The notes beneath the pieces were generated by a model. The model was not told the origin of the DNA. It did no database searches and saw only the letters and a program-made list of their open reading frames with translations. From assembly GCF_003264855.1 (NCBI RefSeq), contig NZ_NFZS01000001.1:186001-250000 (forward strand): a stretch of DNA of 64,000 bases, in the 5' to 3' direction. The stretch is from Dyella jiangningensis (GTDB lineage Bacteria > Pseudomonadota > Gammaproteobacteria > Xanthomonadales > Rhodanobacteraceae). The number at the start of each line of letters is the position of its first letter. Positions within the stretch are counted from its first letter, which is position 1. Of this stretch, positions 6,983 through 21,958 are shown piece by piece. The translations under genes were made by a program, and so were the position numbers.

Positions 6983-7339
6983 ATGCCCAAAGCCTTGAGC
7001 CATATCGCCCTGATCGTCGCCCATCCCACGCGCACGGCGCACCTGCTGACCGACGTATTCGAGGACGCGCGCATCCTTCGCGAGGAAGACCCCGCCGACT
7101 CGCACCCGGAAGTGATCCTGGCATTGGCAGGTCTGGAATTCGCCCTGATCCGCGGACAAGGGCCGGCCTCGCGCAATGGCGACCACATCGCGTTTGCGGT
7201 GACCAAGGAAGAGCAGCTGGCGTGCGCGCGCCGCATGGACGAGCTGGCGCTGGATTACCAGATGGCGCGTGGTGACACGGCGCTGTACTTCAGCGACTAC
7301 GACAACCATGTGTTCGAGTTGGAGGTGGTTGAAGACTGA
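6983..7339 (+). CDS. VOC-superfamily protein, FosX/glyoxalase-like (118 aa)
   Basis: A single-subunit vicinal oxygen chelate protein of 118 residues. It starts with SHIALIVAHPTRTAHLL and ends with GDTALYFSDYDNHVFELEVVED. The YFxDYDNHxFEL ending is shared with the FosA/FosX fosfomycin-modifying group. Candidate metal ligands are H7, H63 (GDHIAF) and the Glu of FELEV. Similarity in these short motifs does not prove resistance activity; many such proteins have unknown substrates. It faces the end of the ilv operon, with three REP units in between. Confidence 0.75.
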   Translation: MPKALSHIALIVAHPTRTAHLLTDVFEDARILREEDPADSHPEVILALAGLEFALIRGQGPASRNGDHIAFAVTKEEQLACARRMDELALDYQMARGDTALYFSDYDNHVFELEVVED

Positions 7340-7349
7340 GGTATGGCGA

Positions 7350-7505
7350 TCGCACACTGGGTGCGCTCCTACAAGAGCGGCGCTTCTGCAGGAGCGTACC
7401 CAGTGCGCGATTCAACCCGCCTCATTCCTTCAACAACAACCGATACCGCGGACTGGCCGCCCACGGACAAGCGCGCTTCGTTGTGCGAGCGCACCCTGTG
7501 CGCGA
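7350..7505. repeat. Three REP units plus a decayed copy of the ilvA 3' end
   Basis: GTAG-type units lie at 7350-7373 (reverse), 7387-7410 (forward, GCAG variant) and 7482-7505 (forward, degenerate head TGTGCGAG). After the second unit, bases 7417-7444 closely copy the sequence after the third unit, which is the true 3' end of ilvA. Read on the minus strand, both encode a YRLLL(R/K)E-stop ending. The unit REP plus ilvA tail therefore appears duplicated with a 95-bp offset. Confidence 0.75.
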
Positions 7506-7516
7506 CAGATTTCGCC

Positions 7517-9082
7517 TCACTCCCTCAACAACAACCGATACGCCGGATTCGCACTCTCGTCGCGAAACGGATACCCCAGCGTCTCAAGAAACGCCTGGAA
7601 CAACACCCGCTCATCCTCGGGCACCTGAATACCGACCAGGATGCGCCCATAGTCCGCGCCCTGGTTGCGGTAATGGAACAGGCTGATGTTCCAGTCCGGA
7701 TGCATGTGGCCGAGGAAGCGCGTCAACGCGCCCGGCCGTTCGGGGAACTCGAAGCGATAGAGCAGTTCGTCGCGGGCCAGCGGCGAGCTGCCGCCGACCA
7801 TGTGGCGCAGGTGCAGCTTGGCCAGTTCGTCGTCGGTGAGATCGAGCACGCCGAAGCCGTGCGTGCGGAACGCATCGATCAAGGTATGGCGCTCGTCGCG
7901 ATGCGTGGTCTGCACGCCCACGAAGATGTGCGCCTCGGCGGTGCTGCCGATGCGGTAGTTGAATTCGGTGATGTTGCGCTGGTCCAGCGCCGCACAGAAG
8001 CGGCGGAAGCTGCCTCGCTCCTCGGGGATGGTGACCGCGAACACGGCTTCGCGCTGCTCGCCCACCTCGGCGCGCTCCGCGACGAAACGCAGGCGGTCGA
8101 AATTGAGGTTGGCGCCGGAGACGATGGCGACCATCGGGTGTTCCGACGGTCCGTGTGCGGCCACGTATTGCTTGAGGCCGGCGAGGGCGAGGGCACCGGC
8201 AGGTTCCGGCACGCTGCGCGTGTCGTGGAACACGTCACGGATCGCCGCGCAGATCGCATCGGTGTCCACGCGGATCATGGCGTCCACATGCTGCTGGCAC
8301 AGCTCGAAGGTGAGGTCGCCCACGCGCTTCACCGCCGTGCCATCGGCGAACAGGCCCACCTCGGACAAGGTCACAGGTGCGCCGCGCTCCAGCGATTGCA
8401 CCATCGCGTCGGAATCGCAGGTCTGCACGCCGATCACCTTCACGTCAGGGCGCAGCGCCTTGATGTAGCCGGCCACGCCTGCCAGCAGGCCGCCGCCGCC
8501 GACCGGCACAAACACGGCGTGCAGGGGCCCGGCGTGTTGGCGCAGGATCTCCATGCCGACCGTCGCCTGACCGGCGATGACGGCGGGATCATCGAAGGGG
8601 TGCACGAAGGTGTAGCCCTGCTCGGCCTGCAGCTTCGCGGCCGCGGCCTGCGCATCGCTGTACGAATCGCCGGCCAGCACGACCTCTACCTGCGCGCCAC
8701 CGAACCGGCGCACTGCATCCACTTTCACTTGCGGCGCCGTCACCGGCATGACGATCACCGCGCGAATGCCCAGGCGCGCCGCTGCCAGCGCCACGCCTTG
8801 CGCATGATTGCCGGCGGAGGCCGCGATCACGCCGCGTGCGCGCTGCGTGGTATCGAGCGACGCCATGCGGTTGTATGCGCCGCGCAGCTTGAACGAGAAC
8901 ACGGGCTGCTGGTCCTCGCGCTTGAGCAGCACCTGCTGGCCCAGACGCGCGGAGAGCAGCGGCGCCGCTTCAAGAGCCGTCTCGCGCGCTACATCGTAAA
9001 CGCGCGCACCCACGGTCTGCCGCAGCAACTCGTGCTCGCTTAGGTGGGCCGCTCGTCCGAGCGGTTGCGCGAGTGCATTCAT
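7517..9082 (-). CDS. ilvA: Biosynthetic threonine dehydratase
   Basis: PLP-dependent deamination of threonine to 2-oxobutyrate, the first step towards isoleucine. SFKLRGAYN carries the PLP lysine (K65), and AGNHAQG and the glycine-rich GGGGLL loop bind the cofactor phosphate. The catalytic domain covers about residues 15-325. Two ACT-like regulatory modules follow (about 335-410 and 430-515), the arrangement of the isoleucine-inhibited biosynthetic enzyme. At 521 residues it is of normal length. It is the last gene of the operon; its ATG overlaps the ilvM stop in an ATGA. Placing ilvA here ties it to leucine/valine control through the leader at 20360. Confidence 0.96.
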   Translation of the reverse strand: MNALAQPLGRAAHLSEHELLRQTVGARVYDVARETALEAAPLLSARLGQQVLLKREDQQPVFSFKLRGAYNRMASLDTTQRARGVIAASAGNHAQGVALAAARLGIRAVIVMPVTAPQVKVDAVRRFGGAQVEVVLAGDSYSDAQAAAAKLQAEQGYTFVHPFDDPAVIAGQATVGMEILRQHAGPLHAVFVPVGGGGLLAGVAGYIKALRPDVKVIGVQTCDSDAMVQSLERGAPVTLSEVGLFADGTAVKRVGDLTFELCQQHVDAMIRVDTDAICAAIRDVFHDTRSVPEPAGALALAGLKQYVAAHGPSEHPMVAIVSGANLNFDRLRFVAERAEVGEQREAVFAVTIPEERGSFRRFCAALDQRNITEFNYRIGSTAEAHIFVGVQTTHRDERHTLIDAFRTHGFGVLDLTDDELAKLHLRHMVGGSSPLARDELLYRFEFPERPGALTRFLGHMHPDWNISLFHYRNQGADYGRILVGIQVPEDERVLFQAFLETLGYPFRDESANPAYRLLLRE

Positions 9083-9324
9083 GATGCAGCGGCGGACGGA
9101 TGACTCACTTCGATCACGTCGATCAGCTTGCGCGTCTGCTTGATGATCTGCTCCACCGTGTCGTCAGCGCCATGCATCACCAGGGTGAGCTGGGACACGG
9201 CAGGATCGCGCGTGGCCGCTACCGTGAGCGAATCGATATTGCAGTGGCGCGCGGCAAACAGGCCGGCCACGCGCATCAGCGCGCCGGATTCGTTCTGCAG
9301 CAGGATGGATAACGTGTGTTTCAT
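9079..9324 (-). CDS. ilvM: Acetolactate synthase small (ACT) subunit
   Basis: An 81-residue single ACT-domain protein (MKHTLSILLQNESGALMRVAGLF, then RHCNIDSLTVAATRD). It matches the short IlvM-type regulatory subunit, not the about 160-residue IlvN/IlvH. The ATG at 9324 is preferred to the TTG six bases earlier. It should bind the large subunit encoded upstream and modulate its activity and valine sensitivity. It is separated from ilvG by about 255 bp filled with two palindromic repeats, unusual for subunits of one enzyme, but is translationally coupled to ilvA. Confidence 0.9.
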   Translation of the reverse strand: MKHTLSILLQNESGALMRVAGLFAARHCNIDSLTVAATRDPAVSQLTLVMHGADDTVEQIIKQTRKLIDVIEVSHPSAAAS

Positions 9325-9347
9325 GGCCAAGCCTATGTCGAATGGGT

Positions 9348-9576
9348 CGTCGTTCCGACGCAGGCCGGAATCCAGCGGCGATCACCTCACACCGAGGCCA
9401 CTGGATCCCGGCCCGCGCCGGGATGACGAGCGTTGAGGTTGTCGCGCCACACCCATCAGGCTCTCACCCCAACCTCAAAAAACCTCTCCTAAAGCGTCAT
9501 TCCGGCGCAGGCCGGAATCCAGCGGCGACAGCCCAACGCCGGCGCCATTGGGTCCCGGCCTGCGCCGGGACGACGG
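9348..9576. repeat. Two tandem intergenic palindromic repeats inside the ilv operon
   Basis: Two related elements, 9348-9430 and 9495-9576. Each starts near CGTCATTCCGGCGCAGGC, continues with CGGAATCCAGCGGCGA and ends with the inverse form CCGGCC(T/C)GCGCCGGGA. Each can fold into a long stem, or into two short stems at the ends. A fragment of the same family lies near 43636-43660. They sit between ilvG and ilvM without breaking either gene. Confidence 0.8.
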
Positions 9577-9579
9577 CTG

Positions 9580-11433
9580 TTAAAACATGTCGCTCGTCGA
9601 TTCCTTGGAAACCGCAGGCGCCACGCGCGACGGAATGAAGTCGCCCGTGATCATCTGCGCATACGTCGCGCCCGGACCCACCATCGGGTAGACGCCCGCG
9701 TCCGGATCGATCATCACTTCAAGGAACGCCGGGCCGTCGAAGGCGAGGAACTCGTCGATGGTTTGCGCCAGCTCTTCCTTGCGCTCCAGCCGGCGCGCCC
9801 ACTCGAAGCCATCGGCCTGCGCTGCCTTGATGAAGTCCTTCTTGTGCAGGCTCTTGTCCGAGGAAGCAAAGCGACCGCGGAAGAACAGCTTCTGCCACTG
9901 GCGCACCATGCCGTCGCCGATGTTGTTGAGCACCACCACCTTCACCGGCAGGCCGTAGGTGGTGACGGTCTCCAGCTCGCCCAGGTTCATGCGGATGCTG
10001 GCGTCGCCGTCGATGTCGATCACCACGGCGTCGCGCCGCGCGAACTGCGCGCCGATGGCGGCAGGCAGGCCGAAGCCCATCGTGCCCATCGAGCCGGAGG
10101 TGAGCCAATGGCGCGGCTCGCGGAAGTCGAAATACTGCGCCGCCCACATCTGGTGCTGGCCCACGCCGGTGCTGATGATGGCGCGGCCCTGCGTCTGGCG
10201 GTTGATCGCCTCGATCACCGCCTGCGGCTGGATCAGCTCGCTGTCGCGGTCGTAGTTGAGCGCGTGCGTGGTCTTCAGCGCGGCGATGTGCGCGTGCCAG
10301 TTCGCATAGCGGCCATCGCTGGCGAAATGGAAGCCATGGCGCACGCCGTACTGCTGCAGGCGCGACAGCGTGCGGTCGAGATCGCCCTGGTGATGCCAGT
10401 CGACCGACTTCACCTTGCCGATCTCCGCCGGATCGATGTCGATCTGCGCGACGAAGCGCGCGTTCGGCGCAAACTTGTCGGGCACGCTGGCGACGCGGTC
10501 GTCGAAGCGCGCGCCCAGCGCCAGCAGGAAGTCGCAGTCTTCCACGGCGTAGTTCGCATAGGCGGTGCCATGCATGCCCAGCATGTGCAGGGCCAGTGGC
10601 TCGGTGGTGTCGATCGCGCCCAGCGCCATCAGCGTGGTGGTGACCGGCAGGCCGAACTGCTGCACAAACGCGCGCAGCGTGCCGGATGCCTCGCCTGAGA
10701 TAAGGCCGCCACCGGCATAGATCAGCGGGCGCTTGGCCTTCGCCAGCGCCGCGAAGAATGCTTCGCACTGCGCATCATCCATGCGTGCGCTGTGGATCGC
10801 GTGCTGGCGCGCGCGATAACCGGGGATAGGCAGCGTGCCTTCACCGGCGAAGGCGAGCGGCGTGTTCTGCACGTCTTTGGGAATGTCCACCACCACGGGA
10901 CCGGGACGGCCGCTGCGCGCGATTTCGAATGCGGTGCGCAGCGTGGCTTCCAACCGGGTGGGATCGGTGAGCAGGAACACGTGCTTCGCGCACGGGCTCA
11001 TGATGTTGCTAACGGGGGCTTCCTGGAAGGCGTCGCTGCCCAGCGCGCCGGTCGGCACCTGGCCGCAGATCACCACCATCGGCACGGAGTCGGACATCGC
11101 ATCGCGCACCGGCGTCACCATGTTGGTGGCACCCGGGCCGGAGGTGACGATCGCCACGCCCACCTTGCCCGACGCGCGCGCATAGCCGGCCGCCATGAAG
11201 CCCGCGCCTTGCTCATTGGCGGGCACGATCAGCGGCATCGGTTCACCGCCCATGGGCGAAAGATGCGTGGCGTTGTAACGGAACACCGCGTCGTACACCG
11301 GCAGGATCGCGCCACCTGAATAGCCGAACAGCACGCTGACGCCTTCGTCGGCGAGCACCTGCACCACCACTTCCGCGCCGCTCATGGTCTGGCCGGCGAG
11401 CGGATGGGTGGTGGCCGGGGTGGGCATCTCCAT
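9580..11433 (-). CDS. ilvG: Acetolactate synthase large (catalytic) subunit
   Basis: TPP- and FAD-dependent synthase that makes acetolactate (valine/leucine) and acetohydroxybutyrate (isoleucine). The catalytic glutamate lies in ANEQGAGFMAAGYARASGK. The TPP/Mg motif is DIDGDASIRMNLGELETV ... VVVLNN. The start is set at MEMPTPATTHPL (617 aa); MPTP two codons later is an alternative. The open frame runs further upstream but lacks family similarity there. It follows ilvC after 184 bp that include a GC-rich hairpin, and is followed by repeats and ilvM. Confidence 0.95.
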   Translation of the reverse strand: MEMPTPATTHPLAGQTMSGAEVVVQVLADEGVSVLFGYSGGAILPVYDAVFRYNATHLSPMGGEPMPLIVPANEQGAGFMAAGYARASGKVGVAIVTSGPGATNMVTPVRDAMSDSVPMVVICGQVPTGALGSDAFQEAPVSNIMSPCAKHVFLLTDPTRLEATLRTAFEIARSGRPGPVVVDIPKDVQNTPLAFAGEGTLPIPGYRARQHAIHSARMDDAQCEAFFAALAKAKRPLIYAGGGLISGEASGTLRAFVQQFGLPVTTTLMALGAIDTTEPLALHMLGMHGTAYANYAVEDCDFLLALGARFDDRVASVPDKFAPNARFVAQIDIDPAEIGKVKSVDWHHQGDLDRTLSRLQQYGVRHGFHFASDGRYANWHAHIAALKTTHALNYDRDSELIQPQAVIEAINRQTQGRAIISTGVGQHQMWAAQYFDFREPRHWLTSGSMGTMGFGLPAAIGAQFARRDAVVIDIDGDASIRMNLGELETVTTYGLPVKVVVLNNIGDGMVRQWQKLFFRGRFASSDKSLHKKDFIKAAQADGFEWARRLERKEELAQTIDEFLAFDGPAFLEVMIDPDAGVYPMVGPGATYAQMITGDFIPSRVAPAVSKESTSDMF

Positions 11434-11585
11434 TTGCAATGGCAGGTTCACGGTCGTCGGGTTTCCTTGGGAATGTCGTCTTCGGTGAAGAAGCTCCCCC
11501 ACCTGCGCAAGCCCGACAGGGGTGGCTTGAGCAGGCGGAGGCCGGGCAGGGGAAAACGCTTGCGGGATAAGCGCCCCCGCCCGAG

Positions 11586-11607
11586 CCGTCCGCCTCGCGG
11601 CGGACGG
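11586..11607. other. GC-rich hairpin between ilvC and ilvG
   Basis: CCGTCCGCC and GGCGGACGG form a perfect 9-bp stem with a TCGC loop, 10 bases after the ilvC stop. No T-run follows on either strand, so it is more likely an mRNA processing or stability element, or a partial attenuator, than a full terminator. Confidence 0.55.
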
Positions 11608-11617
11608 ATGCCAAACT

Positions 11618-12634
11618 TCAACCCACTTTCTTGAGCGGCTCGGCGGCCGGCTTCGGCGCGTTCGCCTGCAGCCACGGCATGCGCGCACGCAGCTTCGCGC
11701 CCACCTGTTCCACCGGATGCTCCAGGTCCGCCTGCTTGAACTTCTTGTAGTTCGGCAGGCCGGCGTTGTACTCGGCGATCCAGTTCCTGGCGAAGGTGCC
11801 GTCCTGGATGTCCTTGAGCACGTCCTTCATGCGCGCCTTGGTGCCGGCGTCGATCACGCGCGGACCGCTGACGTAGTCGCCGTACTGCGCGGTTTCGGAG
11901 ACGAACTCCAGCATGCGGCTGATGCCGCCTTCGTAGAACAGGTCCACGATCAGCTTCAGTTCGTGCAGCACTTCGTAATAGGCGATCTCCGGCTGGTAAC
12001 CGGCTTCCACCAGCGTCTCGAAGCCGGCCTGCACCAGCGAGCTGGCGCCGCCGCACAGCACGGCCTGCTCGCCGAACAGATCGGTCTCGGTCTCTTCCTT
12101 GAAGTCGGTCTTGATCAGCAGCGCGCGACCGCCGCCGATGCCGTCGGCATAAGCCTTGGCCTTCGCTTCGGCCTGGCCGCTGACGTCCTGATGGATCGCC
12201 CAGATGCTCGGTACGCCACGGCCGATTTCATACTCGCGACGCACCAGTGCACCCGGGCCCTTCGGCGCGACCAGGATCACGTCGATGTCCTTGCGCGGAT
12301 CGATCTGCTTGAAGTGCACGTTGAAGCCGTGCGCGAACAGCAGCGCGGCACCCGGCTTGATGTTCGGCTCGATGCTTTCGATGTACAGCTTCGGCTGCAC
12401 CATGTCGGGCGTGAGCACGGCGACCAGGTCGGCGTCCTTCACTGCGTCGCCGGGCTCGGCGACGGTGAAGCCTTCGGCGCGGGCCTTCTCCCACGAGGGG
12501 CCGTTCTTGCGCAGGCCAACCACCACGTCGAGACCGGAGTCACGCAGGTTGAGGGCGTGGGCGCGGCCCTGGCTGCCGTAGCCGAGGACGGCGATGCGGG
12601 CCTTGGCCAGCGTGTCGTTGGTGTTGTTGCTCAT
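11618..12634 (-). CDS. ilvC: Ketol-acid reductoisomerase (class I)
   Basis: NADPH-dependent isomeroreductase that converts acetolactate/acetohydroxybutyrate to dihydroxy acids. The Rossmann motif [17 protein letters not shown] and the KARI active-site segments [23 protein letters not shown] and the metal-binding [12 protein letters not shown] are present. The 338-residue length is that of the short class I enzymes. The ATG overlaps the ilvD stop (ATGA), with AGGAG in the end of ilvD. Confidence 0.97.
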
Positions 12635-14358
12635 GCGGTGACTCCTGCGGTCGTGTCTTCGTTGACTTGGTGGGAAACGGAAGAAGCGGATGTACTGCGT
12701 GGTGCGATGGGTTGCGTGGTGGCGCCTTCGGAAGCGGAGCCCACCAGCGAGACGTACTTGGCCAGTGCGCCGCGCGTGACCTTGGGTGCGGGCGGCTGCC
12801 AGCTGGCGCGACGCGGGGCGAGGTCGGCGGTGGTGCTGATCTCGCGCGTGTCGGCGTCGATGCGGATGCGATCGCCTTCGTGCAGCAGTGCAATGGGACC
12901 GCCGCGCGCCGCTTCGGGCGAGATGTGGCCGACCATGTAGCCGTGCGTGGCGCCGGAGAAACGGCCGTCAGTGATCAGTGCGACGTCGTCGCCCAGCCCG
13001 CGGCCGATCAGCGCCGCGGTGACGCCCAGCATTTCGCGCATGCCCGGGCCACCGGCGGGACCTTCGTTGCGGATGACGATGACGTCGCCCTTCTCGATGG
13101 TACCGCCCTGCACGGCGGCGAAGGCCTGCTCTTCGCTTTCGAAGACGCGTGCGCGGCCTTCGAAATGATTCGCGCCCTTGCCGGCGAGCTTGAGGATGCA
13201 GCCTTCCGGCGCGAGGTTGCCGTAGAGGATCGAATAGCCGCCACGGGGCTTCAGCGGCTGCGTGACCGGATGCACTACGTCCTGGGTTTCGGCGCGCGGC
13301 GCGGCGGCGGCTTCGTCGAACAGGCTGCGGCCGGTGACGGTCGGTGCATCGTCCAACATGCCCGCGGCGATCAGTTCCTGCGCCACGCGCGCGCTGCCAC
13401 CGGCGCCGAACATTTCGACCGCGGTGTAGCGGCCACCTGGCAGCAGGTCGGCGATCACCGGCGTGTGCTTGGAGGCGGGTTCGAAATCTTCCAGCGTCCA
13501 GCGCGTGCCTGCTTCGCGTGCGATGGCGAGCAGGTGCAGCACGGCGTTGGTGGAGCCCGCGGTGGCGGCAACCATGCGCGTGGCATTGCGGAACGCGGTT
13601 TCCGTGAGGAACTCGCGCGGCGTGCGGTTTTCCCGCAGGCAATCCATCACCAGTTCGCCGCAGCGACGCGCGGCGGCGGTCTTGGCAGGATGCGTGGCGG
13701 GAATGTCGTTGAAGCCCATCGGCGACAGGCCCAGCGTGGTCAGCACCATCGCCATGGTGTTGGCGGTGAACTGGCCGCCACAGGCGCCGGCGCCGGGGCA
13801 GGCGTCGCGTTCCACGGAGGTCAGCTCGTCGTCGCCGATTTTGCCCGCGCCATGCGCGCCGACCGCTTCGAACACCTGCTGGATGGTGATGGGATGGTTG
13901 TCGTGCGTGCCGTGCGCGATGGTGCCGCCGTACAGCGCGACGCTCGGAATGTCGAGGCGCGCCATCGCCATCGCCGCGGCGGGAATCGTCTTGTCGCAGC
14001 CGCACAGCACCACCATCGCATCGAGGCAGTGGCCGTCGACGGCCAGCTCGATGGAATCGGTGATCACCTCGCGGCTGATCAGCGAGGCGCGCATGCCCGG
14101 CGTGCCCATGGCGATGCCGTCGGTCACCGCGATGGTGTTGAACTCGATCGGCGTACCGCCGGCGGCACGGATGCCTTCGGCGACATGCTCGGCGAGCTCG
14201 CGCAGATTGAGGTTGCACGGGCTCACGTTGGACCACGTGTGCACCACCGCCACCAGCGGCTTGGCGATGGCCGCGTCGTCCAGGCCGGTGGCGCGCAGCA
14301 TGGCGCGCGCGGGGGCGCGGTCGGGGCCGGTCTTGATCAGGTCGCTACGCATGCTCAT
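12631..14358 (-). CDS. ilvD: Dihydroxy-acid dehydratase
   Basis: Fe-S dependent dehydratase for the common third step of valine/isoleucine synthesis. Motifs are [19 protein letters not shown], the cluster cysteines in [11 protein letters not shown] and [19 protein letters not shown], and the C-terminal [15 protein letters not shown]. 575 residues is normal. It overlaps leuB by 4 bp upstream and ilvC by 4 bp downstream, so translational coupling is likely. Confidence 0.97.
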
Positions 14359-15452
14359 CCGCAGGCCCGCCCCCAGCGCAGGAACGCCGCCGCATTGCAG
14401 GCGTGTTCGTCGACGGCGGCGAGCACCGCCTCCAGCACGTCCCTGGTGCCGGCCGTGCCGCCGACATCACGCGTGCGCGGACCGTGTTCGACCACATCGG
14501 CCACGGCCGCTTCGACCGTGCTCGCTTCCTGTTCCAGGCCCAGCGAATGACGCAGCAGCATCGCGGCGGAGAGGATCGCGCCGACCGGATTGGCCACGCC
14601 CTGGCCGGCGATATCCGGCGCGGAACCATGGATCGGTTCGTACAGGCCGCCCTTGCCTTCGCCGAGCGACGCGGACGGCAACAGGCCCAGCGAGCCGGCC
14701 AATGCCGCGGCTTCATCGGTGAGGATGTCGCCGAACAGGTTCTCGGTGACGACCACGTCGTACTTGCCCGGCTGCGTCAGCAGCAGCATCGCCATGGAGT
14801 CGACCAGCTGATGTTCCAGCTTCACGTCCGGGAATTCGGCGGCGATGCGGGTCACCGTGCTGCGCCAGAGGCGCGAGGTTTCCAGCACATTGGCCTTGTC
14901 CACCGAGGTGACATGCTTGCGGCGCTCGCGTGCCAGCTGGAACGCGCGACGCGTCACGCGCTCCACTTCCGCAACCGTGTACTTGCACTCGTCGGTAGCG
15001 GTGTCGATGGTGCGCGTCTTGGCGCCGAAGTACGCGCCGCCGGTGAGTTCGCGCACGAACAGCACGTCGACGTTCTTCAGCTTCTCGTTCTTCAGCGGCG
15101 ACAGCGAAGCCAGCGCCGGATGCACCTGCAGCGGACGCAGGTTGGCGTACACGCCCAGCGCGGCGCGCAGCGCCAGCAGGCCCTGTTCCGGGCGTACCGG
15201 CGCATTGGGATCGGACCACTTCGGCCCACCTACCGCGCCGAGCAGCACGGCATCGGCGGCCTTGCAGGCCTCCAGCGACGCGGCCGGCAGCGGTTCGCCG
15301 GTGGCATCGATGGCGCAGCCGCCGATCTGGTGTTCCTCGAAATGGAAGTGATGGTCGAAATGCGCGGCGACCGCGTCGAGCACCGCGACCGCAGCCGCCG
15401 TGACTTCGGGGCCGACGCCGTCGCCGGGCAGGGTGACGATTTGCGCTCTCAT
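14355..15452 (-). CDS. leuB: 3-isopropylmalate dehydrogenase
   Basis: NAD-dependent oxidative decarboxylation of 3-isopropylmalate in leucine synthesis. [10 protein letters not shown] at the N-terminus, [11 protein letters not shown], and the C-terminal substrate/NAD segments [15 protein letters not shown] and [20 protein letters not shown] are diagnostic. 365 residues. It overlaps leuD upstream and ilvD downstream by 4 bp each. Confidence 0.97.
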
Positions 15453-16099
15453 GCGTTTACTCCAGCGGATGCGGATCGAAGCGTGTCTTGTTGAGGAGTG
15501 CGGCCATGGATGGCCGCTTCTTGACCTTCGCGTTCATGGATGAACGCATCAATCAGGTCACCGTGTTGTTGCAGGTAGCCGAGCTGGTCCACGCCGTTGA
15601 GCAAGCAATGGCGGGCAAACGGTTCGAGCTGGAAGCGGATGTGGCCGCCATCGGGCAGCGCGATGACCTGTTCGCGCACGTCGATGGTCAGCTCGATGCC
15701 GGGGTTGGCGAGCAGCCAGCGGTGCTCGGCCTCGTCCAGTACGATCGCGAGCAGGCCGTTCTTCAGCGCGTTGTTGCGGAAGATGTCCGCGATCTCGCTG
15801 CACAGCACGGCGTGGATGCCGTAATCCAGCAGCGCCCACGGCGCGTGCTCGCGCGAGGAACCACAACCGAAGTTGCGGCCGGCGACGAGGATGGAACAAC
15901 CCTTCGCCTTCGCCTGGTTGAGCGGGAACGCGGGGTTGTCGCTGCCGTCGGCCTGGTAGCGCCAGTCGTTGAAGCACAGCTTGCCCAGGCCCGCGCGCTC
16001 GGTGGTGGTGAGGAAGCGCGCCGGGATGATGCGATCGGTGTCGATGTTCTCGTCCGGCAGGACGGCGGTGCGGGAGTGGAGACGGGTGACGGGGCGCAT
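15449..16099 (-). CDS. leuD: 3-isopropylmalate dehydratase small subunit
   Basis: The swivelling domain of isopropylmalate isomerase, partner of LeuC. NIDTDRIIPARFL, GRNFGCGSSREHAPWAL and SEIADIFRNNALKNGLL are the family signatures. The ATG at 16099 has GGAGG 9 bases upstream and gives 216 residues, a little longer at the C-terminus than E. coli LeuD. It is 187 bp from leuC because a repeat element occupies the gap. Confidence 0.96.
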   Translation of the reverse strand: MRPVTRLHSRTAVLPDENIDTDRIIPARFLTTTERAGLGKLCFNDWRYQADGSDNPAFPLNQAKAKGCSILVAGRNFGCGSSREHAPWALLDYGIHAVLCSEIADIFRNNALKNGLLAIVLDEAEHRWLLANPGIELTIDVREQVIALPDGGHIRFQLEPFARHCLLNGVDQLGYLQQHGDLIDAFIHEREGQEAAIHGRTPQQDTLRSASAGVNA

Positions 16100-16121
16100 T
16101 AAAAGACCTCCGAAGGACAAC

Positions 16122-16270
16122 GTCCCTTCTCCCCTCTGGGGAGAAGGTGCCCCGAAGGGGCGGATGAGGGGCGGGTGCTCGCGGCGACGTTGTACGAAGC
16201 GCGCTCTTGATTGACGGTGAGGCAAGACTGGCCCCTCACCCCAACCCTCTCCCCGGAGGTGAGAGGGAGC
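16122..16270. repeat. Composite palindromic repeat between leuC and leuD
   Basis: Three stems in a row. CCTTCTCCCC/GGGGAGAAGG lies at 16125-16147, GCCCC/GGGGC right after it, and CCCTCTC/GAGAGGG at about 16246-16268; GAGGGGC and GCCCCTC can also pair over distance. The same kind of sequence, with GGGGAGAA, GATGAGGGG-like and GGTGCTCGCG blocks, recurs at 43105-43158. This looks like a non-autonomous intergenic element inserted into the operon. Confidence 0.7.
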
Positions 16271-16286
16271 AGATGGCGTGCGTTGC

Positions 16287-17696
16287 TCATGCCGCCACCT
16301 CCGCCAAGTACTCACGCGGATCGGCAATCCGCCCCGCGACAGCCGATGCCGCGGCGGTGGCAGGACTCGCCAGCACCGTGCGCGCGCCCTTGCCCTGGCG
16401 CCCTTCGAAATTACGGTTGGACGTGCTCACCACCAGCTGACCCGGCTGCGCCAGGTCGCCATTCATGGCGATGCACATCGAGCACCCCGGCACGCGCCAC
16501 TCGGCGCCGGCGGCGGTGAACACGTGATGCAGGCCTTCGTTCTCCGCATCGCGGCGCACCGCTTCGGAACCCGGCACCACCAGCATGCGCACGCCGTCAG
16601 CGACGCGGCGGCCGCGCAGCACGTGGGCGGCTTCGCGCAGGTCAGACAGGCGCGAATTGGTGCAGCTGCCGACGAACACCACGTCCACCGGGATGCCCTG
16701 CATCGGCTTGCCGGCTTCGGCCTTCATGTAGTCGAGTGCGCGCTTCTCCACCGCGTTGCGCGCGGCAGGCACCGGCTTGTCCATGGCGATAGCCATGCCC
16801 GGATGCGTGCCGTAGGTGACCGTCGGGCGCACCTTGCTGGCATCGATATGCACTTCGCGGTCATAGGCGGCGCCGGCATCGGTGCGCAGCGAACGCCACT
16901 GCGCCACGGCGGCGTCCCACGCAGCGCCCTGCGGCACGCGCGGGCGGCCCTTCAACCAGGCGAAGGTGGTGTCGTCCGGTGCGATCAGGCCAGCGCGTGC
17001 GCCCGCTTCGATCGACATGTTGCACACCGTCATGCGTTCTTCCATCGACAGCGCTTCGATGGCATCGCCGCGGTACTCAATGACGTAGCCCGTGCCGCCA
17101 TCCACGCCGATCTCGCCGATGATGTGCAGGATCAGGTCCTTCGCGCCGACGCCGGACGGCAGCTTGCCGTCGACGTGGATGGCCAGCGTCTTCGGCTTGC
17201 GCTGCAGCAGGCACTGCGTCGCCATCACATGGCCGACTTCGGTGGTGCCGATGCCGAATGCCAGCGCGCCGAATGCGCCGTGGGTAGAGGTGTGGCTGTC
17301 GCCGCACACGATGGTCATGCCCGGCTGCGTCGCACCCAGTTCGGGGCCGATCACGTGCACGATGCCGCGGTCGGCGCTATCCCAGCCATGCAGTTCCACG
17401 CCGAACTCGCGGCAATTGGTTTCAAGCTGTGCGACCTGCGCCTTGGCTTCGGCATTGGCATAGGGGCGCTCCCCGTTCGCATCGGCGGGCAGGGTTGGCG
17501 TGGAGTGATCCAGCGTGGCCAGCGTGCGGTCCGGGCGACGCAGCTTCAGGCCGCGCTCGCGCAGTTCGCTGAAAGCCTGCGGCGAGGTCACCTCGTGCAC
17601 CAGATGCAGGTCGATATAGAGGATCGCCGGCGTGTCGGTGGATTCCGGCGCAACGACGTGCGCGTCCCAGATTTTCTCGAAGAGTGTCTTGGCCAT
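16287..17696 (-). CDS. leuC: 3-isopropylmalate dehydratase large subunit
   Basis: The catalytic 4Fe-4S subunit of isopropylmalate isomerase (469 aa). Cluster ligands lie in [13 protein letters not shown] and [41 protein letters not shown] is the classic aconitase-family motif. The ATG at 17696 with AGGAGG upstream is chosen; it overlaps the ilvE stop by one base (TAATG), so the two are coupled. Confidence 0.97.
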
Positions 17697-18634
17697 TACG
17701 CAGCCTCCTGCGCGGCTTCGACCTGCACGGGCGTTAACCAGTCCCATTTATCCGTCGTGGTGCCGTCGAACAGTCCGAAGAACGCCTTCTGCAGCGCGCG
17801 GGTCACGTCGCCAGGACGGCCCGCACCAACCTGCTTGCGATCCACCGAACGCACCGGCGTGATCTCGGCGGCGGTGCCGGTCATGAAGATCTCGTCGGCG
17901 GTGTACAGCGCTTCGCGCGGCAGGTCGCGCTCTTCCACCGCAATGCCGAGCTCGCCGGCCAGCGTCATCACCGACTCGCGCGTGATGCCGGCCAGGATGC
18001 CGGCGCTGGTCGGCGGGGTAAGCAGCTTGCCGTTCTTCACCAGGAACAGGTTTTCGCCGGCGCCTTCGCTCAGCAGGCCGTTATGGCCCAGCGCGATGCC
18101 TTCGGCATAGCCGCCGCGACGCGCTTCGAGCGCGATCAGCTGGCTGCTCAGGTAATTGCCGCCGGCCTTGGCCCAGCTGGGGAAGGTGTTCGGCGCGGGG
18201 CGATGCCACGAGGACACGCACACATCGGCGCCGTGTTCGATCGCGTCACCGAGATACGCACCCCATTCCAGCGCCATGATCGCCACATCCACCGGCGAAT
18301 CGGCCTTGGGCAGCACGCCCAGGCCGCCCGCGCCACGGAACACGATCGGGCGCACGTAGGCCGACCTCATGCGGTTGGCGCGGATCACTTCCTGGCACGC
18401 CGCGTTGATCTCGTCTTCGCTGTAGCCGATCTCGATCTCGTACACGCGGGCCGACTCGAACAGGCGGCGCGTGTGGTCGGCGAGGCGGAAGTAGGCGGGG
18501 CCTTGCGGCGTGGCGTAGACGCGCTCGCCTTCGAAGACCGAGGAGCCGTAGTGCAGGGCGTGAGTGCTGACGTGGACCGTGGCCTCGGTCCAGGGTTTGA
18601 TCTGGCCGTTGTGCCAGAGAAAAGAGGTTGTCAT
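17696..18634 (-). CDS. ilvE: Branched-chain amino acid aminotransferase
   Basis: Class IV PLP aminotransferase that performs the last step for valine, leucine and isoleucine. The PLP lysine is K156 in [33 protein letters not shown] and the C-terminal [14 protein letters not shown] fit branched-chain transaminases and not D-amino acid transaminase. 312 residues. GAGGAG precedes the ATG, 17 bp after leuA. Confidence 0.95.
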
Positions 18635-18651
18635 CTCGGGGCTCCTCGGTA

Positions 18652-20244
<1,593 letters not shown>

Positions 20245-20280
20245 TCGTTTGGCTCCGCTGGCACGCGCCGTTGGGCAACA

Positions 20281-20314
20281 AAAAACCCCGCATCCGTTTC
20301 CGGGTGCGGGGTTT
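20281..20314 (-). terminator. Attenuator terminator of the leu-ilv operon
   Basis: On the minus strand AAACCCCGCACCCGG and the matching CGGATGCGGGGTTT form a stem of about 14 bp followed by a run of six T. It is a canonical intrinsic terminator between the leader peptide and leuA. The end of the leader gene contains GGTGCGGG (20371-20364), an exact complement of CCCGCACC in the 5' arm (20310-20303). The two arms can therefore exclude each other, as expected for an antiterminator/terminator switch. Confidence 0.9.
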
Positions 20315-20359
20315 GTTGGTGGTATCTAGGTTAGTTCTGCTTTACCTGGACACACGCCC

Positions 20360-20497
20360 TCAGCCCGCACCTCCGTTGGTAATGAGGAGTACGAGTACAA
20401 GGGCAAGAAGGAGGTTGTTGCGAAGGCGCAGCGCGCCGTCGATGGTCGGGGGACCAATCGGTTCGGCTATGCGATCGTGGCTGTTGCGCTGCGACAT
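20360..20497 (-). CDS. Branched-chain amino acid operon leader peptide (45 aa)
   Basis: A short gene missed by length cut-offs. The peptide starts MSQRNSHDRIAEP and contains NNLLLALVLVLLITNGG just before the stop. Between the two Asn and the Thr there are seven Leu, two Val and one Ile codons. This is the codon run of an IlvL/LeuL-type attenuator peptide. Starvation for Leu/Val/Ile would stall the ribosome here, leave GGTGCGGG free to pair with the terminator's 5' arm, and let leuA-ilvA be transcribed. Charged tRNAs would let the ribosome reach the stop codon, mask that segment and allow termination. Confidence 0.88.
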   Translation of the reverse strand: MSQRNSHDRIAEPIGPPTIDGALRLRNNLLLALVLVLLITNGGAG

Positions 20498-20504
20498 GCA
20501 ACCG

Positions 20505-20534
20505 ACCCTAATGGGCCGTCCAACGGGTTGTCAA
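20505..20534 (-). promoter_or_regulatory. Promoter of the leu-ilv operon
   Basis: TTGACA (20534-20529) and TAGGGT (20510-20505) are 18 bp apart on the minus strand. The expected start of transcription, 6-8 bases after the -10 box, coincides with the ATG of the leader peptide at 20497. The leader mRNA may therefore be leaderless or nearly so. Confidence 0.7.
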
Positions 20535-20640
20535 CAGTTTCTTTTGAAAATTTTGCGATCGCGTGTCGCGATGCACATTCGGACGTCCAGATGGCTGAAC
20601 GCCTCGCGCGCGTGTTGCATGCGCGCGAGCGGTGCCGCGA

Positions 20641-21267
20641 TCAGCGATGCGCGGCGAGTTGGCCGAGGTAGAGCGAAAGTGCCTGCTGGAGCTGGTTTTG
20701 CGCGGCTTTTCGCAGCGTCGCCGGTTGTTCGTTATCGAGCGCAACGGCTGCCTTCATCAACTGCTGCACCACCATCGCGGCGGGGCGAAGTTCGCCGGCA
20801 GGGATGCCGGGCGCGTGGATCGCGAGGATCTGGCTGAGGTAATCGCGCATGCGCTGGCGAATGGTGCGACCCAGCATGGAGGGCAGGGAGCCGGCGACCT
20901 CCACCAGCGTGACGAAGGCCGGGTGCCGCTTGCGGTAGTCCGCGAAGGCGCTTAGCAGGTGTCCTGCCAGTTCCTCCGTCGTCCAGTCCGGGGTCTGGGC
21001 GAGCAGGCGCTCCATGTGCTCGTTCAGCCCGTTCGCGTGGCCGGTGATCAAGGCCTCGGCCACCGATTCCTTGGTCGGGAAGAACTGATACAGCGAGCCG
21101 ATGGAGGCGCCGGCACGGGCGGCGATCTCCGTCATGGTGGTGGCGTCGTAGCCCTTTTCGACGAAGCAGTCCGAGGCGGCCGCGAGCAGCGCCGCTACCC
21201 GCTCATGGCCCCGGCGGCGGCTGGGCGCGCGGCCGCCCTGGCTTGTGTTTTGTGAGGACATCCTCAT
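20641..21267 (-). CDS. TetR/AcrR-family transcriptional regulator
   Basis: An N-terminal helix-turn-helix (about residues 22-65: RVAALLAAASDCFVEKGYDATTMTEIA, then GASIGSLYQFFPTKE) precedes a variable ligand-binding domain; 208 residues in all. The ATG at 21267 is used; a second in-frame ATG two codons later has better Shine-Dalgarno spacing. It is divergent from the YecD-like gene. Two palindromes at and just outside its start codon suggest autoregulation and control of that gene. The ligand is unknown. Confidence 0.92.
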   Translation of the reverse strand: MRMSSQNTSQGGRAPSRRRGHERVAALLAAASDCFVEKGYDATTMTEIAARAGASIGSLYQFFPTKESVAEALITGHANGLNEHMERLLAQTPDWTTEELAGHLLSAFADYRKRHPAFVTLVEVAGSLPSMLGRTIRQRMRDYLSQILAIHAPGIPAGELRPAAMVVQQLMKAAVALDNEQPATLRKAAQNQLQQALSLYLGQLAAHR

Positions 21268-21295
21268 AAACTCCAATGTGAGGGTAGCCTCACAT
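21251..21295. promoter_or_regulatory. Two palindromic operators between tetR and the YecD-like gene
   Basis: ATGTGAGG-GTAG-CCTCACAT at 21276-21295 is a perfect 8-bp inverted repeat with a 4-base centre. TGTGAGG-ACAT-CCTCATA at 21251-21268 repeats it with one mismatch and covers the tetR start codon. The centres are 26 bp apart. This fits a TetR dimer pair acting on both divergent genes. Confidence 0.78.
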
Positions 21296-21388
21296 AATGG
21301 TCTTCCCCGCAGGCATCGGGGCGCTGCACGAATGCAGCCTATTCTACGCCGATGCCGGCGCAATCCCCGCCATTGCCTGGAGTTATCG

Positions 21389-21958
21389 ATGGAAAAGCTT
21401 GATCCCCGAACCACTGCGCTCGTCCTCATCGACCTGCAGAAAGGTATCGCGGCGTTCGCCGGCGGCCCGCATTCCAGCGCCGAGGTCAACGCCCGCGCCG
21501 GACGCCTCGCCGCCCGCTTCCGCGAGCTGAAGGCGCCCGTGGTGCTGGTGCGGGTGGGCTGGTCGGCCGACGCCGGCGACATGTTGCACCCGCTGACCGA
21601 CGAGGCCCCGCGCAACATGAGCCTGCCCGCCCACTGGTGGGACTACGCCGACGAGCTCAACGTGGCCGAGGGCGACATCCACATCACCAAGCGCCAGTGG
21701 GGCGCCTTCCACGGCACCGAGCTGGAACTGCAGCTGCGCCGCCGTGGCATCACGCAGATCGTGCTGGGCGGCGTATCCACCAACATCGGCGTGGAATCCA
21801 CCGCGCGCAACGCGTTCGAACTGGGTTTCCACCAGGTGCTGGTGGAGGACGCCATGAGCTCGTCCAACGCCGACCATCATCGCTTCGCCGTGGAAAACAT
21901 CTTCCCTCGCCTGGGTCGCGTGCGCTCCACCGACCAGGTGCTGGCCATGCTGGCCTGA
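21389..21958 (+). CDS. yecD: YecD-like isochorismatase-fold protein (189 aa)
   Basis: The sequence follows E. coli YecD closely by memory (TTALVLIDLQKGI, VRVGWSAD, ITKRQWGAFHGTELELQLRRRGI, GGVSTNIGVESTARNAFELGF). The cysteine hydrolase fold is present, with the usual Asp (D15) and Lys (K101). The position of the nucleophilic Cys is Gly (G134 in TNIGVEST), as I recall for YecD itself. Hydrolase activity of the classical kind is therefore doubtful. GGAG precedes the chosen ATG. Control by the divergent TetR protein is likely. Confidence 0.88.
   Translation: MEKLDPRTTALVLIDLQKGIAAFAGGPHSSAEVNARAGRLAARFRELKAPVVLVRVGWSADAGDMLHPLTDEAPRNMSLPAHWWDYADELNVAEGDIHITKRQWGAFHGTELELQLRRRGITQIVLGGVSTNIGVESTARNAFELGFHQVLVEDAMSSSNADHHRFAVENIFPRLGRVRSTDQVLAMLA

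Follow-up and report, generated by a model that had tools for sequence, protein, structure and literature searches.

A probable leaderless ribosome-mediated attenuator sensing leucine, valine and isoleucine upstream of the merged leu-ilv genes of Dyella jiangningensis

The analysis of a 64,000-nucleotide stretch of Dyella jiangningensis DNA (hereafter the window) reveals, on the minus strand upstream of leuA, an element that is very probably a ribosome-mediated transcription attenuator sensing the charging of Leu, Val and Ile tRNAs, with a leader that appears to be translated as a leaderless mRNA. This leaderless layout is the most unusual trait of an otherwise ordinary and widespread mechanism. 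Ribosome-mediated attenuation had been proposed for this site in an earlier note, and that reading is supported here by the elements themselves, by their conservation in relatives, and by covariation of the alternative pairing between genera.

The leader is located between leuA, whose start lies at 20244, and a gene called TetR-like by eye, and all of its elements are on the minus strand. The leader peptide ORF (MSQRNSHDRIAEPIGPPTIDGALRLRNNLLLALVLVLLITNGGAG; 45 codons plus TGA, 20360..20497, with the ATG at 20497) ends in NNLLLALVLVLLITNGGAG and carries, as the earlier note had claimed, seven Leu, two Val and one Ile codons near its end. These fall in codons 29-39 (20381..20413), which encode LLLALVLVLLI as CTC CTT CTT GCC CTT GTA CTC GTA CTC CTC ATT, so that 10 of the 11 are Leu, Val or Ile codons. 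The strong intrinsic terminator claimed before leuA is likewise present (a 3:4 hairpin and T run, 20280..20313, -21.9 kcal/mol followed by six T) and starts 46 nt past the leader stop, and the 8-base segment said to complement its 5' arm could be confirmed: segment 2, GGTGCGGG (20364..20371), directly 5' of the stop codon, is the exact complement of segment 3, CCCGCACC (20303..20310). Two further features had gone unnoticed, namely the capacity of the control codons to pair with segment 2 and the presence of promoter-like boxes adjoining the start codon. Segment 1, GCCCTTGTACTCGTACTCC (20386..20404), lies within the control codons and folds with GGAGGTGCGGGCTGAGGGC (20356..20374), which includes segment 2, into a 1:2 hairpin of -22.1 kcal/mol, and segment 2 has two possible partners, the control codons or the 5' arm of the terminator. 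The boxes are a -35-like TTGACA (20529..20534), whose first base is the point at which the earlier note had closed its feature, and a -10-like TAGGGT (20505..20510), separated from the -35 box by 18 nt and from the start codon by 7 nt, in a layout that looks alike by eye in relatives.

These elements point to the following regulatory cycle. RNA polymerase would begin on the A of the leader AUG or beside it, and the leader would be translated as a leaderless mRNA. With Leu, Val and Ile plentiful, the ribosome at the stop codon would cover segment 2, segments 3 and 4 would pair, and transcription would stop before leuA. When any of the three amino acids is short, the ribosome would stall in codons 29-39 and break the 1:2 hairpin, and the freed segment 2 would pair with segment 3 before segment 4 is made, allowing the polymerase to read through into the operon. 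Without translation, both 1:2 and 3:4 would form and transcription would stop.

The dense control run and the stable fold were each compared with chance. When ATG-started ORFs of 12-80 codons were examined, a dense L/I/V run (at least eight such residues in ten near the C-terminus) was found in one of 408 window ORFs, the leader ORF. Across 80 loci (1.29 Mb, 8484 ORFs), which were fetched via leuA and are enriched for true leaders, the same test returned 34 ORFs, 26 of which have a terminator by a strict definition and are leader-like by eye, two of them (L045 and L056) being from genomes further away. None of 200 shuffles folded as well as the 241-base region (z -5.2), and among 44 aligned sequences 7 of the 9 modelled stem pairs of the terminator are invariant. 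Such strong structure and conserved nucleotides would also suit a ligand-binding riboswitch, a T-box or a protein-binding leader with no translated ORF, a reading that we regard as extremely improbable given that a drifting middle part of the peptide contrasts with a conserved frame, Leu/Val/Ile run and agreement of that run with the operon, that the run ends where the stall window ends, and that an Rfam scan of the window returned zero families at threshold. Thr_leader RF00506 gave a weak match (23.4 bits, E 0.033; gathering score 55), and Leu_leader RF00512 scored 15.5 bits (gathering score 50). NCBIfam and Pfam gave zero matches for the leader peptides of the window and three relatives. The earlier description of the leader as new holds with respect to the Rfam, NCBIfam and Pfam libraries searched, and does not extend to the principle, which is already known.

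Conservation of the attenuator was investigated with a covariance model built from the 3' part of the leader and containing no 2:3 pairs. At E 0.01 it matched in 164 of 197 genomes of the window's family, a figure that counts model matches, the individually read leaders being those of the leuA-first loci. It also matched in 138 of 200 genomes sampled from the order, at least 34 of which belong to the family (32 of these with a match). Class-wide, 35 of 274 genomes matched at E 0.001, three of them in the order (the window's own, G197 and G208) and the other 32 weakly. Of these weak matches, 16 places were fetched: L297 (before ilvC), L300, L303 and L304 resemble other attenuators by eye, and the remainder are mostly like plain terminators. 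Outside the family, 84 of 100 places among the matches listed precede leuA, ilvC, ilvD, ilvE or ilvG (blastx against the window proteins), eight precede asnB and eight precede neither, so the leader tends to precede whichever gene leads the operon. The 100 places are the listed outside-family matches minus ten (reverse-strand, partial and others, with G302 at E 2.1e-11 and G267:C6 left out by oversight).

The leader was read individually in 51 leuA-first loci with 44 distinct cores, comprising the window, 21 named loci and 29 further genomes, with some species represented twice and one contig (L020) binned as Polyangiaceae. Seventeen of the 21 named loci share the order leuA-ilvE-leuC-leuD-leuB-ilvD-ilvC-ilvG, with ilvG often clipped by the locus end and the ilvG of L018 and L019 only 42% identical; L014 and L015 follow the same order as far as the contig end, L017 is without leuD and ilvD matches, and L021 is without an ilvC match. 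Four Lysobacter loci have ilvD first and the leu genes last, and eight stretches of other genera have leu genes without ilv genes. A search of the Lysobacter loci directly upstream of leuA did not find the leader; it was found elsewhere in Lysobacter L022, L028 and L064, where ilvD is first among the searched genes. Across relatives the peptide hardly varies in its C-terminal run and its G(G)AG end, and its M(S/T)QR..H N-terminus, which recurs in the three Lysobacter leaders, is well kept. The check set beforehand for the relatives showed that the peptide and the alternative pairing are kept through the family and also in other families of the order. As a separate observation, the Polyangiaceae-binned contig has both the leader and the merged gene order, reflecting either a binning error or a transfer.

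Within the family, none of the 22 modelled pairs in the alignment showed two-sided change, and because these pairs are nearly invariant there, the comparison was moved to between genera, where segments 2 and 3 were found to covary. Among 107 distinct leaders, segment 2 pairs with its own segment 3 at -16.4 kcal/mol versus -14.7 kcal/mol in permuted pairings (0/5000 as good), and among 43 genus-by-gene representatives at -15.7 versus -13.8 kcal/mol (0/20000 as good), in a permutation test that leaves some relatedness among the leaders. Since the search model holds no 2:3 pairs, this covariation was not selected by the model. The pair types include GGTGCGGG/CCCGCACC, GGTAGCGGG/CCCGCTACC, GGGAGCGGG/CCCGCTCCC, GGCGCGGGG/CCCCGCGCC and GAGTGCGGG/CCCGCACTT, among others. 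For single leaders the signal is uneven: only 9 of the 43 representatives have their best partner in their own segment 3, all 42 other segments 3 pair better than the own one in two of them, and for seven the shuffled segments do at least as well in 23 or more of 100 trials. Among the leaders listed, L237, L260, L263, L270, L274 and L275 have four contiguous pairs or fewer. Taken across genera, these sequences indicate that an antiterminator pairing that would exclude the terminator has been kept in evolution.

The geometry of stalling was simulated by folding the RNA free 3' of the ribosome, with the A site placed at each codon and 12 nt covered. Over codons 25-46 of the window, all eight 2:3 pairs form at codons 29-39 and none at 25-28; beyond the run there are five pairs at codon 40, three at 41 and none at 42-46, and the fully permissive block ends with the single Ile of the run. 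Upon retesting with five 3' ends and three footprints, the 3' edge fell at codon 38-40 in 15 of 15 settings. The 5' edge is fragile, as it depends on the RNA cut point and rests on 0.6-1.9 kcal/mol; some of codons 4-13 were also permissive, and shortening the 3' end made most upstream codons partly or fully permissive. An exact stall window at codons 29-39 was accordingly discarded, its 5' edge having failed the retest and the first test having covered codons 25-46 only. Among 123 distinct leaders, the permissive window closes 0-4 codons past the last branched-chain codon in 121 with the 12-nt footprint, in 122 with a 10-nt footprint and in 113 with a 14-nt footprint, a measure limited to +4 (12 of 123 at that limit) and compared with no null model. 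Under a looser test of permissiveness, 1507 of 3593 permissive codons are branched-chain codons versus 317 of 2120 other codons, and this test marks many upstream codons permissive too. At its 3' edge, the modelled window is consistent with a stall at the control codons freeing segment 2 and a ribosome at the stop covering it. When the full-length RNA is folded, the terminator has the lowest energy wherever the ribosome is stalled between codons 25 and 46, so antitermination would have to be won by timing, which is the general view for attenuator switches.

If leuA were preceded by a constitutive terminator or a small RNA gene and the peptide were an independent small protein, with no attenuation, both the covarying antiterminator and the fit of the run to the stall window would lack a role, and we consider this reading very improbable. 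What speaks for it is the M(S/T)QR..H N-terminus, kept beyond the need for a spacer also in L022, L028 and L064, together with the precedent of a trans-acting leader peptide, peTrpL of S. meliloti, reported in PMC7298713. The attenuator peptide may have a role in trans in addition to attenuation. It can also be observed that the first seven leader codons (often ATG NNN CA. CGC) are more conserved than a spacer requires, perhaps as a leaderless initiation signal or for a function of the peptide.

The content of the control run tends to follow the genes downstream. Of 74 leaders preceding ilv or mixed operons, 62 have at least two Val in the run, versus three of eight preceding leu-only operons (P 0.008), in a test designed after the sequences were seen. 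The leu-only group is without L164 and L278, for which no start was found, and seven of its eight members were checked as ilv-free in the fetched stretch, L248 excepted and L289 over only 3.4 kb. In the window, the gene set is merged and Leu, Val and Ile all occur in the run. Most control codons are rare synonyms. Across 13 window genes, CTG makes up 65% and CTY 26% of Leu codons, GTA 2% of Val codons and ATT 7% of Ile codons; the control runs of 127 leaders use CTY for 552 of 647 Leu, GTA for 191 of 283 Val and ATT for 121 of 130 Ile. The same holds outside the family, where control runs have 73% CTY, 55% GTA and 92% ATT versus 16%, 3% and 18%, respectively, when 80 genes downstream of these leaders are counted. 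Some of these rare-codon choices are constrained by the pairing of segment 1, and tRNA-specific sensing may be another reason for them.

The start of the leader was examined by picking, for each leader, an in-frame start (ATG preferred) with TTGAC 30-42 nt upstream. TTGAC lies 35-39 nt upstream of the in-frame start in 133 of 135 leaders (82 of 84 outside and 51 of 51 inside the leuA-first set), with 107 at 36 or 37 nt, and the choice among several in-frame starts slightly favours this result. The start of L166, a distant TTG counted among the 133, is probably spurious. The chance occurrence of this layout is estimated at well under 10% per leader. With the spacing usual for sigma-70 promoters, the position of TTGAC would place the transcription start on the ATG or beside it, and the leader would be a leaderless mRNA. 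The reading frame and the position of the start are kept among the leaders, which hints indirectly at translation. We consider it unlikely that the element is a classical attenuator with an ordinary 5' region and ribosome-binding site, whose boxes have been misread and whose transcription comes from further upstream. TAGGGT is weak as a -10 box and a consensus promoter scanner reported no promoter in 7000-21700, as such an arrangement would have it, yet TTGAC falls at 35-39 nt in nearly all leaders when 30-42 nt was allowed, and no Shine-Dalgarno-like sequence is kept before the ATG, as judged by eye across relatives. What a leader with an ordinary 5' region looks like is illustrated by L303, outside the order, with AGGAG before its ATG. 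A search of the literature found no start-site data for the leader RNA.

The putative leaderless attenuator precedes ten genes on the minus strand: leuA (2-isopropylmalate synthase, 18652..20244), ilvE (branched-chain transaminase, 17696..18634), leuC (16287..17696), leuD (15449..16092, called from its ORF and its place in the gene order), leuB (14355..15452), ilvD (12631..14358), ilvC (11618..12634), the acetolactate synthase large subunit (called ilvG here, 9580..11532), a short acetolactate synthase small subunit of about 81 aa (9079..9330) and ilvA (threonine ammonia-lyase, 7517..9082). Nine of the ten, all except leuD, were scanned, and each is a pathway enzyme with an NCBIfam match above the cut-off; the best match of ilvG begins at residue 50, and the gene probably starts at a coordinate below 11532. 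The order and spacing of the genes lead us to infer that all ten, from leuA to ilvA, would form one transcript under the attenuator. A scan for internal terminators on the minus strand (7000-21700) reported none, and as it also missed the attenuator terminator this says little.

Several side observations concern these genes. Palindromic repeat-like sequences lie inside the operon at 16093-16286 (the leuC/leuD gap) and 9330-9579 (upstream of the small subunit gene). In L006-L009 and L013, only 7-10 bases separate the leuC match from that of leuD. Among the g11 genomes, probably Luteibacter (e.g. G186, G133, G196 and G010; also L030), most have a LeuA match over only about residues 7-430 of 530, without the part that holds the leucine-binding domain in known LeuA; three g11 genomes have a TGA within the LeuA match, and the LeuA of G062 is full length. 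The leader model still matches G010, G133, G186 and G196.

The eight leader-model matches before asnB have Asn-rich leaders, and for one of these (L173, leader 558-715) the downstream protein was identified as asparagine synthase B by NCBIfam. A model built from the eight asnB leaders matched 68 of 299 order genomes at E 0.001, with all places below E 1e-8 in family f2. All 30 loci returned (L313-L342, e.g. L315 from 1501) precede asnB by blastx, seven of the 30 being genomes used to build the model. These leaders contain 4-9 Asn as parsed (L314 was parsed in a longer frame), promoter-like boxes directly before the ATG (TTGCGC or similar, not TTGACA), the segment pair GATGCGGG/CCCGCATC, and a terminator before asnB. 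Eight of them (seven distinct peptides) were folded, and the 3' edge of the permissive window follows the last Asn codon by one or two codons; only this edge is informative, since the upstream codons are permissive throughout. The asnB leader presents as a candidate asparagine attenuator in family f2, and a search of the literature found no Asn attenuator. Taken together, it is likely that the order has a common leaderless attenuation platform, in which a promoter starting transcription on the leader AUG, a spacer at the N-terminus and a GCGGG/CCCGC switch are combined with control codons that can be exchanged: Leu/Val/Ile before the lead gene of ilv/leu operons, Asn before asnB.

These findings provide a likely regulator for nearly the whole branched-chain pathway where the scanned libraries gave none, and over 120 distinct leaders that form a natural series, their codon content tending to follow operon content. 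Should the leaderless start prove general, the timing of attenuation without a ribosome-binding site and the reason for rare synonymous codons at control positions would both become testable. Searches of the literature found no description of this leader, and the part of PMC2965389, on attenuators, that was available makes no mention of it. Predictions for Xanthomonas or Xylella may already be contained in the 2004 work by Vitreschak and others, which reportedly compared attenuators across proteobacteria.

Among known systems, the E. coli ilvGMEDA, ilvBN and leuABCD attenuators have Leu/Val/Ile-rich leader peptides, an intrinsic terminator and alternative pairing. Whereas leu and ilv are separate operons with separate leaders in E. 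coli, one leader precedes a merged gene set in the window. The E. coli thrL leader (L284, 190-310) ends in ...GGTGCGGGCTGA and has the terminator arm CCCGCACC, both the same as in the window, but its control codons are Thr and Ile and a 5' region precedes its start. The trpL attenuator of S. meliloti is leaderless like that of the window, the 5' end of its attenuated RNA being the ATG of the leader ORF according to PMC7298713, but it carries Trp codons and belongs to another bacterial class. For C. glutamicum ilvBNC, a title cited in PMC10272879 reports leader peptide formation without a ribosome binding site; this attenuator (the ilvB-II motif) has a branched-chain leader peptide, as in the window, and differs in coming from an actinobacterium and in serving ilvBNC only. 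Both the attenuation principle and the leaderless start have precedents.
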